Shown here one piece after another: positions 11,604-22,757 of a stretch of 35,301 nucleotides of DNA. Both the position numbers and the translations under genes were made by a program. The stretch is taken from the NCBI RefSeq assembly GCF_024684275.1, contig NZ_JAIKXF010000109.1:1-35301 (forward strand). Direction: 5' to 3'. The DNA is from Ruminococcus sp. (lineage in GTDB: Bacteria; Bacillota_A; Clostridia; Oscillospirales; Ruminococcaceae). How positions within the stretch are numbered: the stretch's first letter is position 1; each line of letters begins with the position of its first letter. Under the pieces are notes generated by a model. That model was not told the origin of the DNA, did not search any database, and saw nothing but the letters and a program-made list of their open reading frames with translations.

Positions 11604-12884
11604 TTAGAGCTTAATAAGTCCCTCTGAAAGCATTTCCTGAGCCGCAAGCATTACACCCAGCTTACCGCTTGTGTAGGTAATACCGCCCTGCATCCATACA
11701 GCGTATGGCTCGCGGAGGGGAGCATCTGCGGACAGCTCGATGGAAGCGCCGTTGGTGAAAGCACCAGCCGCCATGATGACCTGACTTGAATAGCCCGGCA
11801 TATCCCAGGGCTCCGGAGTTACAAATGAGTCTATGGGAGCGCCCTTCTGTATTCCGCGGCAGAATGCGCAGAGATGTTCCTCGTCACCCAGCTTTACGGC
11901 AGTGATTATATCTCCTCTTGGCTCGTCCTTGCGCGGAGAGCACTCAAAGCCGAGAAGTGTGAACAGCTCACTTGCAAAGGTGCAGGTCTTGACTGCGTTT
12001 GCCACAACATCGGGAGCGAAGAATATTCCCATGAGCATTTCGCGGTTCATGCCGAGAGTACAGCCGACCTCCTTGCCCATGCCCACGCAGGTAAGACGAT
12101 AGGAGCAGAGCTCCACAAGGTCTGCTCTGCCTGCGATATATCCGCCTGTACGGGCGATACCGCCGCCTGCGTTCTTGATGAGTGAGCCTATGATAACGTC
12201 AGCACCTACAGCAGTAGGCTCTCTGTCCTCCACGAATTCGCCGTAGCAGTTGTCCACCATGATGATGACATCGGGATTGCCTTTTTTGGCGGCATTTATC
12301 ATCTTCTCAATATCGGCAATAGTGAAAGCTCCGCGGAGGGAATAGCCGCGTGAGCGCTGTATGTAAGCCACTTTAGCGTCCTTTACAGCTTCGGTTATCT
12401 CGTCCAGCTTGGGAGTACCGTCCTCATTCAGGTCTACCTGTCCGTAATTTACGCCGTAGTCCATGAGAGAGCCGTTGCCCTTAGTGCCGCTGATACCGAT
12501 AACTTCTTCAAGAGTGTCATACGGCTTGCCTGTTATGGAAACTATCTTGTCGCCTGTTCGGAGAACTCCGAAAAGTGCAACAGACAGGGCATGAGTGCCC
12601 GAAACGAAGTTGAAGCGCACCAGAGCGTCCTCAGCACCGAGAGCCTGAGCGAATACCTTGTCGATGACCTCGCGTCCCATATCGCCGTAGCCGTAGCCTG
12701 TAGAGCCGTAGAAGCAGGGCTCGCTGACCTTGTTATCGGAAAATGCTTTAAGCACTTTTGCGCCGCAGTACTCAGCATTAGCGTCTATTTTTGCAAAGGC
12801 TTCGGCGCAGTTTTTTTCTGCCTGAGCGGCGAGCTCGGCGAGTCTGTTGTCGAAGCCGTAAATTTCATTTATTTTGCTGTTCAT
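11604..12884 (-). CDS. Methionine gamma-lyase family PLP enzyme (aluminium-resistance/YnbB type)
   Basis: A 426-residue fold-type I PLP enzyme. The PLP-binding lysine is probably K237 (GSLIKNAGGGIA), preceded by the Asp that contacts the pyridine ring (MVDNCYGEF, D211). FVSGTHALSVALFG corresponds to the phosphate-binding turn. The family (Met_gamma_lyase, often called aluminium-resistance protein) is widespread in Firmicutes, and its true reaction is poorly defined; C-S lyase activity is presumed. AAAGGAT lies just before the ATG. The 135-nt repeat copy A begins 16 nt upstream of the start codon, so the repeat forms the immediate leader. Confidence 0.92.
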   Translation of the reverse strand: MNSKINEIYGFDNRLAELAAQAEKNCAEAFAKIDANAEYCGAKVLKAFSDNKVSEPCFYGSTGYGYGDMGREVIDKVFAQALGAEDALVRFNFVSGTHALSVALFGVLRTGDKIVSITGKPYDTLEEVIGISGTKGNGSLMDYGVNYGQVDLNEDGTPKLDEITEAVKDAKVAYIQRSRGYSLRGAFTIADIEKMINAAKKGNPDVIIMVDNCYGEFVEDREPTAVGADVIIGSLIKNAGGGIARTGGYIAGRADLVELCSYRLTCVGMGKEVGCTLGMNREMLMGIFFAPDVVANAVKTCTFASELFTLLGFECSPRKDEPRGDIITAVKLGDEEHLCAFCRGIQKGAPIDSFVTPEPWDMPGYSSQVIMAAGAFTNGASIELSADAPLREPYAVWMQGGITYTSGKLGVMLAAQEMLSEGLIKL

Positions 12885-12900
12885 TTGTTATCCTTTCTTG

Positions 12901-13035
12901 TAAATCAAAATTTAATGATGTAGGGGCGCACAATGTGCGCCCGCAAACATACACATCAATTTTGACACGGGCGAACAATGTTCGCCCCTACAATACCAAT
13001 TTTTCGGGACGCCAAAGGCGTTAAATTATGATTTA
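12901..13035 (+). repeat. 135-nt perfect inverted repeat, copy A
   Basis: It is identical, base for base, to the reverse complement of 15152-15286. It contains a 74-nt core (12919-12992) with TGTAGGGGCG and CGCCCCTACA ends and two 9-1-9 hairpins, GGGCGCACA-A-TGTGCGCCC and GGGCGAACA-A-TGTTCGCCC. The outer arms are AT-rich (TAAATCAAAATTTAATGA; GCGTTAAATTATGATTTA). No coding capacity is seen. It is MITE-like in form. Confidence 0.95.
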
Positions 13036-13078
13036 TTGTATATTTAGATTATATCGTTTTTATTAAGCTGTGTCAACC

Positions 13079-14326
13079 TCAGACCCTGTAATTTTCCGCC
13101 TCTTTTATCAGCTTAATGTCCACAAGGGCGTCGATAAGTGTTCCGTTTTCAGCGTACTCCTCTGAGAATATCTTTCCGTCCTGACGTATCTTGCCGAGAA
13201 ATGCTCCCTTATCGTAGGGGATAAGGAGCTTCATGCGCTTTGCGGTCTCAGGAAGGTTTTTCATTATACATTCAAGGAGCTTATCAAAGCCCGTGCGCTC
13301 CTTTGCACTTATCATAACAGTGGTGTCGTCCTCGAATACCGTATCCGTGAACGGTGCCGCGTCAGCCTTGTTCATGACGTATATCTGAGGTATCCCTTCG
13401 CAGCCAAGCTCACTGAGCAGGCTTGCTGTGACCTCTGCCTGCTCTTTTATCTCTGGTGATGAAAGGTCCTGTACATTGAGGATAATATCCGCAGCCGCAG
13501 CTTCTTCAAGTGTGGATTTGAATGCCTCGACCAGATTGTGGGGAAGTCTCCTGATAAGTCCTACCGTATCTATGAGCATGACGCTTCTGCCGTCGGGGAG
13601 CTCTATAGAACGTGAGGTTATATCCAGTGTTGCAAAGAGCTTGTTTTCCGCAAGAACTCCTGCATCGGTAAGGGCGTTCAGCAGAGTGGACTTTCCTACA
13701 TTTGTATAGCCGACTATAGCCGCGCAGAGAACACCATCTTTTTTTCGGCGAGAACGTGAGAAATTACGGTGCTTTTTAAGCTCATCAAGCTCAGCCTCAA
13801 GGTAGCTGATACGCTTGCGGATATGGCGCTTATCGGTCTCAAGCTTTGTTTCTCCGGGACCTCTTGTACCGATACCGCCGCCCAGTCTCGAAAGGGCAGT
13901 ACCCATACCCGTAAGACGGGGGAGCCTGTATTTCTGCTGGGCAAGCTCTACCTGCAATTTACCTTCTTTTGTTCGGGCGCGCTGAGCGAAAATATCAAGT
14001 ATCAGCGTAGTCCTGTCGATAACTCGGACGTCCAGAATCTCCTCGATATTACGCACCTGAACTCCCGTGAGCTCGTGGTCGAAGATGACCAGCTCAGCGC
14101 CGAGGGCTTCAAGCTGATCCTTTAGCTCTTCAAGTCTGCCTGCACCCATACAGGTAGCAGGATCGTAGGTGGGACGTCTCTGGATTATTGAGCCAACCAC
14201 CTCGGCGTTTGCGGTGGCTGCCAGCTCTTCAAGCTCGCCTATGGAGACCTCGGCGTCAAATTCTCCTGTATCCACGCAGGCGAGGACTGCTTTTACGGGA
14301 AGGTCGTCGGTCTTGTTTTCGTACAT
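13079..14326 (-). CDS. hflX: Ribosome-associated GTPase HflX
   Basis: A 415-residue HflX, which splits stalled or stress-damaged ribosomes using GTP. The N-terminal HflX domain (~1-195) includes RRPTYDPATCMGAGRLEEL and GGGIGTRGPGETKLETD. The GTPase domain has G1 GYTNVGKST (206-214), G3 DTVG and G4 NKAD. Size is normal. It starts 13 nt after the GIY-YIG stop, with AAAAGGAG before the ATG, and follows ispF and the GIY-YIG gene in one run. The whole run lies inside the 2.1-kb segment bounded by the 135-nt inverted repeat. Confidence 0.97.
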   Translation of the reverse strand: MYENKTDDLPVKAVLACVDTGEFDAEVSIGELEELAATANAEVVGSIIQRRPTYDPATCMGAGRLEELKDQLEALGAELVIFDHELTGVQVRNIEEILDVRVIDRTTLILDIFAQRARTKEGKLQVELAQQKYRLPRLTGMGTALSRLGGGIGTRGPGETKLETDKRHIRKRISYLEAELDELKKHRNFSRSRRKKDGVLCAAIVGYTNVGKSTLLNALTDAGVLAENKLFATLDITSRSIELPDGRSVMLIDTVGLIRRLPHNLVEAFKSTLEEAAAADIILNVQDLSSPEIKEQAEVTASLLSELGCEGIPQIYVMNKADAAPFTDTVFEDDTTVMISAKERTGFDKLLECIMKNLPETAKRMKLLIPYDKGAFLGKIRQDGKIFSEEYAENGTLIDALVDIKLIKEAENYRV

Positions 14327-14339
14327 ATGGTACTCCTTT

Positions 14340-14648
14340 TCAGATGATCTCTCGGCAGTAAAACTCTGTGTTTTCGTCGCTTATCAGCTCAGAAAAGCAG
14401 GTATTGTCTGCAATAAGCCGAAGCTTCTGTGCTTTTTTGAGATGCTTTATGCGGTATTCCAGCTTTGAGGCGAGACTTCTGCTGCCGCAGCTCCAGAGAG
14501 CTTCAAGTGACTTGAATTGGTGAGAGCGTGTGAACTTTGCGCCTTTGGGCGTTTTGCGCTCATGCTCGTCCATTCGTCGGTCAACGTCGGTAGTTATGCC
14601 AGTATACAGCAGGTCGCCCTCGCATTTTATGATGTAAACGTAGTACAT
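14340..14648 (-). CDS. GIY-YIG domain protein (UPF0213/YhbQ type)
   Basis: A small GIY-YIG nuclease-fold protein. MYYVYIIKCEGDLLYTGITTD provides the GIY-YIG core strands (here VYI...YTG), followed by the Arg in DRRMDEHE, KFTRSHQF and a conserved Glu in SKLEYRIKHLKK. The ATG at 14648 is preferred because relatives start right at YYVYII. A GTG at 14672 would add eight residues and overlap the end of ispF. The stand-alone members have uncertain roles; DNA nicking or repair is suspected. It is coupled to ispF and hflX. Confidence 0.88.
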   Translation of the reverse strand: MYYVYIIKCEGDLLYTGITTDVDRRMDEHERKTPKGAKFTRSHQFKSLEALWSCGSRSLASKLEYRIKHLKKAQKLRLIADNTCFSELISDENTEFYCREII

Positions 14649-14659
14649 CTGCGGATATT

Positions 14660-15136
14660 TCAGGCTTTGCACATGAGTGCGACAGCGTGGGCGGACATAC
14701 CCAGCTTTTCGCCTGTGAATCCGAGGTGCTCCTCAGTGGTAGCCTTAACGCTTATCTGTGACACGTCACAGCCGCATACCTTAGCGATATTTTCACGCAT
14801 AGCCATGATGTGTGGAGCGAGTTTCGGAGCCTGAGCAATGATAGTTGCGTCGATATTGCCTATTTCCCAGCCCTCTGCTCTTATCCTGCGGCAAACCTCA
14901 GCCATGAGCTTCATGCTGTCGGCGTCCTTGAAGCTGTCGTCGTTGTCGGGGAAGAGGTGACCGATGTCGCCCATAGCGAGAGCGCCCAGCATGGCGTCCA
15001 TTATGGCGTGGACAAGAACGTCAGCGTCCGAGTGACCGAGAAGCCCCGTAACGTGTGGTATCTCGATGCCGCCGAGTATGAGCTTTCTGCCCTCCACCAG
15101 CTTGTGAACGTCATAACCGTGACCTATTCTGAACAT
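14660..15136 (-). CDS. ispF: 2-C-methyl-D-erythritol 2,4-cyclodiphosphate synthase
   Basis: IspF makes the cyclic diphosphate intermediate of the MEP isoprenoid pathway. The 158-residue protein carries the zinc ligands D9 and H11 (GYDVH) and H43 (VLVHAIMDA), the HSDADV loop (35-40), and the C-terminal [13 protein letters not shown] motif. Length is standard. GAAAGGAG lies before the start. Its leader begins at the edge of repeat copy B (15152-15286), so no room for a separate promoter is seen between repeat and gene. It may be transcribed from the antiporter promoter or from inside the repeat. Confidence 0.98.
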
Positions 15137-15151
15137 ATTATTCTCCTTTCG

Positions 15152-15286
15152 TAAATCATAATTTAACGCCTTTGGCGTCCCGAAAAATTGGTATTGTAGG
15201 GGCGAACATTGTTCGCCCGTGTCAAAATTGATGTGTATGTTTGCGGGCGCACATTGTGCGCCCCTACATCATTAAATTTTGATTTA
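15152..15286 (-). repeat. 135-nt perfect inverted repeat, copy B
   Basis: Exact reverse complement of 12901-13035. Its last three bases (15284-15286) supply the TAA stop codon of the antiporter gene, so the element abuts or overlaps that coding end. Together with copy A it brackets 2,116 bp holding ispF, the GIY-YIG gene and hflX. Confidence 0.95.
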
Positions 15287-16489
15287 TTTCCCTGCCTTTA
15301 CAGCTGCTTTTTCTGTATCGTCTTGTGATCTGCCGAAAAGCAGCTTCAAAATTATCGGCGTAACTATACTTGATACGATAATGAGCAGTATTACTGCGGT
15401 AAAATAGGACGAGTCGATTATGCCAAGTCCAAGTCCCTTGTTTGTGATGATAAGGGCTACCTCGCCTCTTGTCATCATGCCTGCGCCTATCTTCAGGCAG
15501 TCGAGCCAGCTGTATCTGAAGCACTTTGAAACCAGTCCGCAGCCGATGACTTTGCTGAGCATAGCTACCAGAACAAAGCCTATTGAGAACACTATCATGC
15601 TGGAGTCAACGGTTTTAAGGTCGGTTTCAAGACCGATACCTACAAAAAACATAGGTGCAAAGAACATATATCCGTTGATATTTACTCGGCGGTCTATGTA
15701 TTCGGCGTCGCGGACGTTGCAGAGGATTATTCCTGCGATATATGCGCCTGTTATGTCGGCGATGCCGAAGTACTTTTCGGCGATATATGCCATTATAAAG
15801 CAGAGAGTGATCGCAATTATAGGTATTCTTCTTGTATGAGCGTGTCTGTCATCGTAGAACTTGAATACCTTGTAGATGATAAAGCCTATCACAAGCGACA
15901 ATACAAGGAAAAGCAGTATCTTTCCCGTAACGAGGAGAGTATTGCTGTTGGGGTCCTTGAAGCCGAGAACAAAGGTGAGGACGATAATGCCGATAACGTC
16001 GTCTATGATAGCGGCACTGAGTATGGTCTGTCCAACTCGGCTGTTGAGCTTGCCCATTTCCTTGAGCACCTCAACGGTTATGCCAACTGATGTAGCTGTC
16101 ATGATACAGCCTATGAACACTGCCTTGAAGAATTCGTCAGAGCCGAATTCAGAAAAGCCGTAAACGCACATATACAGCAGGCTTCCGCCGATCAGCGGCA
16201 CTAAAACTCCCACGCAGGCGATAAGGAACGCCGCAAATCCCGATTTTTTCATTTCCTGAAGGTTCGTTTCGAGTCCTGCCGAGAACATAATGAGTATAAC
16301 GCCTATCTCAGCCATTTGCTTGATAAAGGGAGTAGGCTCCACCCAGCCCAGCAGACAGGGACCGATAAGCAGTCCGGCGACTATCTCACCTACGACCATA
16401 GGAGCTTTCAGCCGTCTTGCAAGAAGACCTGCACCCTTTGCGCATATGAAAATTATCGCAAGGTCTTTGAGTATCTCATAGGTTTCCAT
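15284..16489 (-). CDS. CPA2-family cation/proton antiporter
   Basis: A 401-residue integral membrane protein with about 12 hydrophobic segments, matching the Na+/H+ exchanger domain of CPA2 (NapA/KefB-like). Diagnostic stretches are LKAPMVVGEIVAGLLIGP, IGVILIMFSAGLETNL, the unwound-helix region IMTATSVGITVEVL, AAIIDDVIGIIVL (the ion-binding acidic pair) and MTRGEVALII. It lacks the C-terminal TrkA-N domain of Kef proteins. It probably exports Na+ or K+ in exchange for protons. It is transcribed from a consensus promoter (16545-16573) and begins the minus-strand gene run. Its stop codon lies inside repeat copy B. Confidence 0.93.
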   Translation of the reverse strand: METYEILKDLAIIFICAKGAGLLARRLKAPMVVGEIVAGLLIGPCLLGWVEPTPFIKQMAEIGVILIMFSAGLETNLQEMKKSGFAAFLIACVGVLVPLIGGSLLYMCVYGFSEFGSDEFFKAVFIGCIMTATSVGITVEVLKEMGKLNSRVGQTILSAAIIDDVIGIIVLTFVLGFKDPNSNTLLVTGKILLFLVLSLVIGFIIYKVFKFYDDRHAHTRRIPIIAITLCFIMAYIAEKYFGIADITGAYIAGIILCNVRDAEYIDRRVNINGYMFFAPMFFVGIGLETDLKTVDSSMIVFSIGFVLVAMLSKVIGCGLVSKCFRYSWLDCLKIGAGMMTRGEVALIITNKGLGLGIIDSSYFTAVILLIIVSSIVTPIILKLLFGRSQDDTEKAAVKAGK

Positions 16490-21525: not shown

Positions 21526-21566
21526 TTTTCTTTCTCCTTTACTTTAAAATATAATTCCGTATATAA

Positions 21567-21642
21567 TGTAGGGGAGCCCGCCCTCGGGCTCCCGCGAAAT
21601 ATCTTAGAATATCGTGGGAGGGCGAGGGCGCCCTCCCCTACA
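21567..21642. repeat. Hairpin repeat between dapA and dapB
   Basis: TGTAGGGGAG...CTCCCCTACA ends enclose two 9-4-9 stems, GGGAGCCCG/CGGGCTCCC and GGGAGGGCG/CGCCCTCCC. It has the same architecture as the 74-nt core of the 135-nt repeat but different stem sequences. Confidence 0.85.
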
Positions 21643-21655
21643 AGATAATGTTCAG

Positions 21656-22605: not shown

Positions 22606-22640
22606 TTCGCCCATTATGTTACAAATTTTGAGTATTGAAC

Positions 22641-22757
22641 TGTAGGGGAGCCCGCCCTCGGGCTCCCGAAAGGTTGCTGTTGTTGTATTGCGGGAGGGCG
22701 AGGGCGCCCTCCCCTACAATTGACTTTTTTCTCGGGCGGATAATATCCGCCCCTACA
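22641..22757. repeat. Hairpin repeat plus half-element between asd and dapA
   Basis: A full element (22641-22718) repeats the GGGAGCCCG and GGGAGGGCG stems of the copy at 21567 with a different central spacer. It is followed by a half-element (22734-22757) with a 9-1-9 stem, GGGCGGATA-A-TATCCGCCC, ending CTACA. Confidence 0.85.

Follow-up and report, generated by a model that had tools for sequence, protein, structure and literature searches.

Why should two stretches of 135 nucleotides (nt) on either side of three bacterial genes be exact reverse complements of each other? The question is raised by a 35,301-nt contig of a Ruminococcus sp. (NZ_JAIKXF010000109.1, positions 1 to 35,301; this whole stretch of DNA is called the window here), in which positions 12901-13035 and 15152-15286 form the arms of an inverted repeat around ispF, a gene for a small GIY-YIG domain protein, and hflX. 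The source, a rumen bacterium, is Ruminococcus flavefaciens-like, and the top match of its HflX protein is that of R. flavefaciens MA2007, at 96%. An original prediction, made from the letters of this locus, had proposed recent duplication, gene conversion or selection as the cause of the identity, and had suggested that the enclosed segment might invert or that its transcript might fold into a long duplex. We consider it very probable that the arms are two recent copies of one short non-coding, presumably trans-mobilised element, in which an AT-rich shell of terminal inverted repeats (TIRs) surrounds a doublet of repetitive extragenic palindromic (REP) sequences, and that they occupy two insertion-prone sites. 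The two copies would have inserted recently, in opposite orientation, into the intergenic regions ahead of ispF and of mgl, a methionine gamma-lyase-like gene (on the 5' side of each), and their pairing would have no function of its own. The support comes from the anatomy of the element, from identical copies in other genomes, and from relatives in which these positions are empty or are filled by other repeats or by cassettes of a different kind.

Each arm is a complete non-coding element

The arms lie 2116 nt apart and are 100% reverse-complementary with 0 mismatches, as found in a repeat search and a direct check, and not one additional identical base follows outside either arm end; the exact match and its sharp limits had been described correctly from the start. 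The chance expectation for such an exact pair in a random window of the same composition is ~4e-73. Each arm is a complete non-coding element with the layout of a GTAG-type REP doublet, and is thus REPIN-like. In each, 15-bp TIRs of the TAAATCAAAATTTAA type enclose the palindromes GGGCGCACAATGTGCGCCC and GGGCGAACAATGTTCGCCC, which are mutually inverted, and TGTAGGGG (GTAG) stands at the foot of both. Two inverted REP palindromes, a GTAG foot and a single-strand hairpin are among the marks of REPINs and all three are present here, as are the TIRs of a miniature inverted-repeat transposable element (MITE). Single copies fold as RNA with energies of -50.3 and -55.3 kcal/mol, and the hairpin is equally evident as DNA (z ~ -7 for both, 0 of 200 shuffles being equally stable). 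Because each copy folds so strongly upon itself, local hairpins should outcompete a duplex between the arms, and the long transcript duplex that had been envisaged is not supported.

Identical copies in other genomes

Full-length copies were found in MA2007 (two) and in RUI288 (two) and in no other of 20 whole genomes, among the matches listed. One copy in each of these genomes is 100% identical over 135 nt and lies at a locus unrelated to the window's, upstream of an asparagine-synthase-like open reading frame (ORF) in MA2007 and of a sigma-factor-like ORF in RUI288 (both named by eye). The second copies have 7 mismatches (MA2007) and 6 mismatches (RUI288). Variation among the six copies, including those of the window, is confined to the outermost 18 nt at one end and to the TIR at the other, and the 109-nt core is constant. 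How does this identity compare with that of an ordinary gene? The hflX genes of MA2007 and RUI288 are 88% and 83% identical to the window's at the DNA level, and gene-like divergence would predict ~16 and ~22 differences per 135 nt, respectively, where 0 are observed. Since the 135 nt are identical despite hflX divergence of 12% and 17%, the simplest reading of these copies, judged from sequence comparison, would be recent movement, including movement across species.

These copies also bear on the causes first proposed for the identity of the arms. Recent copying is supported, but conversion from arm to arm is not needed, as identical copies sit in other genomes, and a function of the inverted pair is likewise unsupported, given the 135 nt at unrelated loci in two of them. 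The original prediction had named a single orientation in all strains, together with unpaired copies scattered at many unrelated loci, as the observation that would reduce the pair to two chance insertions, and the copies in MA2007 and RUI288 come close to this. Less complete relatives of the sequence are common: some match at E 1e-3 is present in 18 of the 20 whole genomes, mostly as REP fragments (41 matches in MA2007 and 55 in FD-1, again mostly fragments, with part of the candidates scored). The 109-nt core is matched at E 1e-25 in 5 of 120 genomes of the genus and is complete solely in MA2007 and RUI288. No full copy was found in 80 hflX loci of the genome collection, many of which stop short of one or both sites.

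Contents of the two sites in relatives

At the ispF site, different elements are present in the window and in the relatives G013 (155 bp), G014 (203 bp) and G009, and they share the end base before the ispF ribosome-binding site; G015 has a remnant there, and G008 and G011 have no element. At the mgl site, elements lie at the matching position in eight other genomes with cassettes that differ from the window's, of which that in G003 matches at one end only, and one cassette is flipped along with its ends when G008 and G009 are compared with G013. MA2007 has other repeats at both sites. The relative G049 is collinear with the window from ~2.0 kb on (79-91% DNA identity per block) and its IspF is 100% identical to the window's, yet it has no full element copy: its ispF site holds a REP mosaic without AAATC ends, and its mgl site (L321-L322, between hflX and mgl) holds an insert of 2.2 kb in which two ORFs share a split sulfatase-like protein (named by eye), in the mgl leader region.

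A wider family with shared ends

The ends of the element belong to a larger family. The AAATCAWAATTTA motif of the TIR occurs 77 times in G008, 59 in G009, 78 in G011 and 98 in G013, and 8 times in MA2007 and 6 in RUI288, while the reversed-motif control gave 0 in all of these. A survey of 120 genomes of the genus found the motif in 78 of them and at least 14 copies only in nine (G007, G008, G009, G010, G011, G013, G014, G015 and G049), with a reversed-pattern control of at most 2 per strand and genome; G009, G013, G014 and G015 are metagenome assemblies. In the regions fetched, 105 elements with such ends were called, allowing at most one mismatch in the 12-nt TIR core, requiring one plus and one minus end, and dropping single-sign clusters. 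Regions of G008, G011 and G013 were chosen for carrying the motif, besides four contigs or contig parts that were read through, and the fetched set is a subset of the motif sites, drawn in G008 and G013 from the sites listed. Element sizes recur at 33, 150, 155-157, 172-179, 184, 296-298 and 358-360 bp. In R. flavefaciens relatives a bare 33-bp palindrome occurs by itself, and identical ends also bound several unrelated cassettes. None of the 94 elements of G008, G011 and G013 lies inside an ORF as defined by a simple caller; the ORFs on either side are convergent for 42 of them, codirectional for 42 and divergent for 5, and the remaining 5 have no neighbour on one side (raw counts). TA is present at both ends in 76 of the 105 elements and may equally be an extension of the TIR, and target duplications of 3-9 bp showed no clear excess at element ends.

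Some features of the cassettes were noted in passing. Judged by eye, several (L008, L013 and others) seem to be made up of short tandem repeats with a 7-bp unit (GTTGAGA, GCCNTTA and AGTAGAG are examples), inverted around a palindromic core. The tips of some minimal 33-bp hairpins (e.g. G008:C8:79175-79207) read GCAAAGC or GCGAAGC, and tips of this kind form unusually stable DNA mini-hairpins.

Conserved sites with differing contents

Flank matching between genomes identified 15 sites that are occupied in two or more genomes, and these hold 41 of the 105 elements. Among 58 same-site pairs, 5 are similar (at least 0.8) in the same orientation, 4 are similar when inverted and 49 are different. 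A strict rule, by which neither end may be displaced by more than 6 bp, leaves 10 sites with 35 pairs, 27 of them different, 4 inverted and 4 the same. The pair counts are dominated by the mgl site; the site [48,83], scored different at 0.77 similarity, may be a length variant, and one inverted call (G014/G015) is meaningless for near-palindromic hairpins of 33-37 bp. The only window pairs that pass the strict rule are the mgl site against G009 and the ispF site against G013. In the other window pairs one end is off by 16-20 bp, or by 118 bp in the case of G003; the shift is due at least in part to BLAST alignments that end before the element, and the flank letters beside those elements look alike by eye. 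The sites seem older than their contents.

What could place different elements at the same base in different species? One hypothesis is that the sites are hot targets, at which different elements of one TIR family were independently inserted at the same base in each lineage, where the site was empty or an earlier element had been precisely lost. This is quite possible, though somewhat short of an even chance. It is favored by the preferred context of the flanks pooled over 208 ends (T at -1 in 85%, A at -2 in 61% and T at -6 in 72%) and by the empty ispF sites of G008 and G011. However, in directed comparisons from five sequences, namely the window and the four contigs or contig parts read through, the other genome has an orthologous element in 28 of 35 cases, none in 6 and a remnant in 1, and boundaries at shared sites mostly agree to the base, which fits old exchanged sites at least as well; the sites in this comparison are few and non-independent, in sequences that were not picked for single elements.

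An alternative hypothesis is cassette exchange in place, by which the TIR shell would be a long-lived socket and its interior, or the whole element, would be exchanged or inverted, either through site-specific recombination or through ectopic conversion with copies elsewhere in the genome. This is possible but on the doubtful side. It is consistent with the differing cassettes at 8 of the 10 strict sites, both sites of the window's repeat among them, and with the 2 strict sites at which a cassette is flipped together with its ends (2 have a same pair). Many elements have a sibling at least 97% identical within their genome (26 of 40 in G011 and 15 of 25 in G008), different cassettes at one site mostly have just 12-19 terminal bases in common among the pairs printed, and the window's 109-nt core is found with two kinds of ends. 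Against exchange stand the lack of an identified recombinase, shared ends that are very short for RecA-type conversion, the low proportion of such siblings in G013 (4 of 16), which weighs against homogenization, and the origin of the G009, G013, G014 and G015 sequences in metagenome assemblies. Moreover, 9 of the 58 same-site pairs are alike, compared with 77 of 1051 random cross-genome pairs that reach 0.8; same-site pairs are thus more often alike than random ones, and any exchange must be incomplete.

For the window copies we give in-place replacement and fresh hits on hot targets about equal weight. As a tentative model, which we think somewhat improbable as a whole, Ruminococcus genomes would contain fixed intergenic sockets delimited by the 13-bp sequence AAATCAWAATTTA, and a putative site-specific exchange system would repeatedly replace and flip, as units, the non-coding hairpin cassettes within them. 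Each species would refill old sites with its own cassettes, and the window pair would represent two such sockets.

Explanations confined to the repeat itself

Could the identity of the arms instead have arisen within the locus? Gene conversion between the arms, or local duplication of one from the other, would suit two identical sequences just 2.1 kb apart, but we regard it as very unlikely. The off-locus copies in two other genomes are equally identical, so that local conversion is unnecessary, and the other elements at the ispF site in G013, G014 and G009 indicate that this site receives insertions independently of the repeat.

Least probable, and indeed highly unlikely, is the proposal of the original prediction that the segment inverts by recombination between the arms, here taken as phase variation of ispF, the GIY-YIG gene and hflX: a RecA-dependent inversion is possible with 135 nt of perfect inverted identity, and the nhx-ispF block differs in place and orientation relative to hflX-mgl among relatives, but none of 86 sources, the window included, has arm-to-arm recombinant junctions, the gene order nhx-ispF-giy-hflX-mgl is common to the window, MA2007 and G049 (the last by collinear match), and element copies lie at unrelated loci in other genomes. 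The 86 sources mostly cover part of the region, include some genomes twice, and, the window aside, are at nearest 88% identical in hflX DNA, so that the result covers relatives of the window's species. Nor was a recombinase found among the five proteins scanned at the locus, which are the mgl product, HflX, the GIY-YIG protein, IspF and the exchanger. Wherever both genes are present (9 of 9 sources, from 8 genomes), nhx, for a Na+/H+ exchanger, adjoins ispF, and hflX adjoins mgl in 21 of 21. The GIY-YIG gene had been thought noteworthy, with coincidence as the other option, and coincidence is now favored. A DNA match places the gene beside hflX in 18 of the 80 loci from relatives, none of which has the full 135-nt element, and for this reason it is probably an ordinary neighbor that lies inside the segment by coincidence.

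Movement of the nhx-ispF block is a separate observation. Its place and orientation with respect to hflX-mgl, and also to the HAD-hsp33 genes (assigned by eye), vary between species, as seen in G008:C8, G011:C4 and G013:C40 when compared with the window. A TIR element adjoins the HAD gene at one breakpoint of this block in G008 and G011.

Candidate enzymes

How would a non-coding element be moved? We infer an enzyme that acts on such elements in trans, and a RAYT-type HUH transposase would be the best candidate for the REP doublet. A scan of 13 relatives detected Y1-type transposases in 7. When ten Y1 frames were tested, three (in G002, G005 and G006) matched the RAYT model only and seven were IS200-type.

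Several points weigh against the reading of the arms as recently mobilized copies, and most concern the enzyme. The RAYT-like frames score 60.8, 51.4 and 31.6 bits, below the curated cut-off of 80 bits; the frame in G005 has a stop, and the weakest falls within 24-35 bits, the range of IS200 proteins on the RAYT model. In MA2007 the single tested frame is IS200-type, and 16 further Y1 matches are shorter pieces. Five of the six scanned genomes with at least 14 TIR motifs (G008, G009, G011, G014 and G015, with G013 excepted) have no Y1 match, and therefore a different enzyme has to be sought for the TIR shell. Where TIR pairs are widely spaced in the regions read, neither of the two longest enclosed ORFs was recognized as a transposase with the same TIRs. 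An IS630-type partner was not found either, with DDE_3 (PF13358) in 0 of 9 genomes. As the TA ends could also be TIR extension, target duplications are not demonstrable. Finally, RUI288 is a metagenome assembly, and copy number and alternative orientation were assessed in relatives of the window's own strain.

The three RAYT-like frames (L190:1363-1860, L187:1459-1983 and L183:1567-1974) each have an in-frame inverted pair of GTAG-footed REP palindromes inside the coding sequence. By eye, the two palindromes of one gene resemble each other but not those of the other genes, as though every transposase gene contained a cognate doublet of its own.

Relation to known repeats

Which known repeats does the element resemble? 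REPINs and GTAG REP doublets, which are RAYT-linked, likewise consist of two inverted GTAG-footed palindromes that form a hairpin (PMC3116915, PMC3733652). As with REPINs, the related TIR-bounded elements lie between genes. Partial REP-type matches are numerous in many relatives, and RAYT-like frames, below the cut-off, occur in three. REPs are reported mainly between unidirectional and convergent ORFs (PMC3733652). The present element differs in that an AT-rich TIR shell encloses the doublet, the 135-nt unit keeps the same ends at different loci, and the full element is low-copy, with two copies each in MA2007 and RUI288. A similar layout is seen in Anabaena variabilis, where REP dimers such as GTAG-15 are nested in long palindromes (PMC3733652); in both cases GTAG dimers lie within a longer palindrome. 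In A. variabilis no target palindromes unlinked to REPs were found (PMC3733652), whereas R. flavefaciens relatives have the lone 33-bp palindrome and the same ends around several unrelated cassettes.

RUP and NEMIS are named as MITEs (PMC3733652). The family resembles them in size (~100-400 bp), in having TIRs, in lying beside genes and in the TA at both ends of 76 of the 105 elements, but no IS630-type partner was found in the 9 genomes scanned, and subfamilies with shared ends have unrelated interiors. RUP and NEMIS have a TA target duplication. The likeness to pdif modules and integron cassettes is solely in the short inverted ends that delimit exchangeable inserts, which here appear non-coding.

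The inner part of the element is covered by known REPINs (PMC3116915) and GTAG REPs, nested REP dimers included (PMC3733652). No literature description of such elements in Ruminococcus was found, nor any published shared-end, content-swapping sockets, in a narrow search with few subscription papers that is weak evidence of absence; the main text of PMC3733652 has 0 occurrences of Ruminococcus. We read the family as a novel form of REP/MITE nesting in which the sockets would be fixed and the inserts exchangeable.

Features of the locus

Protein scans confirmed the genes that had been named between the arms, and mgl, hflX, the GIY-YIG gene, ispF and nhx all lie on one strand (Table 1). Other origins of the arms were considered and rejected: a search of 12000-16000 against Rfam for a riboswitch or known RNA gave a single sub-threshold chance match, the window has no tRNA that would suit a tRNA-linked insertion, and for phage carriage an interior 35-mer gave 0 exact matches in viral_contigs. 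A second composite-repeat pair of similar layout, TGTAGGGG...CCCCTACA, lies at 21562-21647 and 22638-22721, in direct orientation and ~1.07 kb apart, and flanks a dapA-like gene (named by eye).

Table 1 Coordinates of the element copies, their parts and the neighboring genes in the window.
Feature	Position	Strand	Remark
mgl, methionine gamma-lyase-like gene	11604-12884	-	Downstream of copy A; protein scan
Element copy A, 135 nt	12901-13035	+	Between hflX and mgl, in presumed 5' untranslated region of mgl
Copy A TIR, TAAATCAAAATTTAA	12901-12915	+	14/15 pairs with 13021-13035
Copy A GTAG-footed REP-like palindrome 1, TGTAGGGGCGCACAATGTGCGCCCG	12919-12943	+	
Copy A 109-nt core	12919-13027	+	No variation among the six full-length copies (two each in window, MA2007 and RUI288)
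Copy A GTAG-footed REP-like palindrome 2, TGTAGGGGCGAACATTGTTCGCCCG on minus strand	12968-12992	-	Inverted
Copy A opposite TIR, TAAATCATAATTTAA on minus strand	13021-13035	-	
Sigma-70-type promoter match, TTGACA-17-TATAAT	13048-13076	-	Ahead of copy A and mgl; 12/12 consensus positions; consensus match only
hflX GTPase gene	13079-14326	-	Protein scan
Small GIY-YIG domain protein	14340-14672	-	Protein scan; adjoins hflX in relatives too
ispF	14660-15136	-	PF02542
Element copy B, 135 nt	15152-15286	-	Between nhx and ispF; exact reverse complement of A; end 15 nt short of ispF start
Copy B REP-like palindrome 2	15195-15219	+	
Copy B REP-like palindrome 1	15244-15268	-	
nhx stop codon, TAA	15284-15286	-	Copy B's first three bases
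nhx, Na+/H+ exchanger gene	15284-16489	-	Upstream of copy B; protein scan

Biological meaning

The 135-nt pair is itself ordinary mobile-repeat biology, and the tempting reading as a phase-variation device is removed. The wider family is less ordinary, in that positions are conserved across species and contents are exchanged or flipped. If confirmed in isolate genomes, it would provide a clean system for studying how non-coding elements excise, re-target and homogenize. Moreover, the changing hairpins sit directly ahead of ribosome-binding sites, here those of ispF and mgl, and from this placement they may alter expression between strains.

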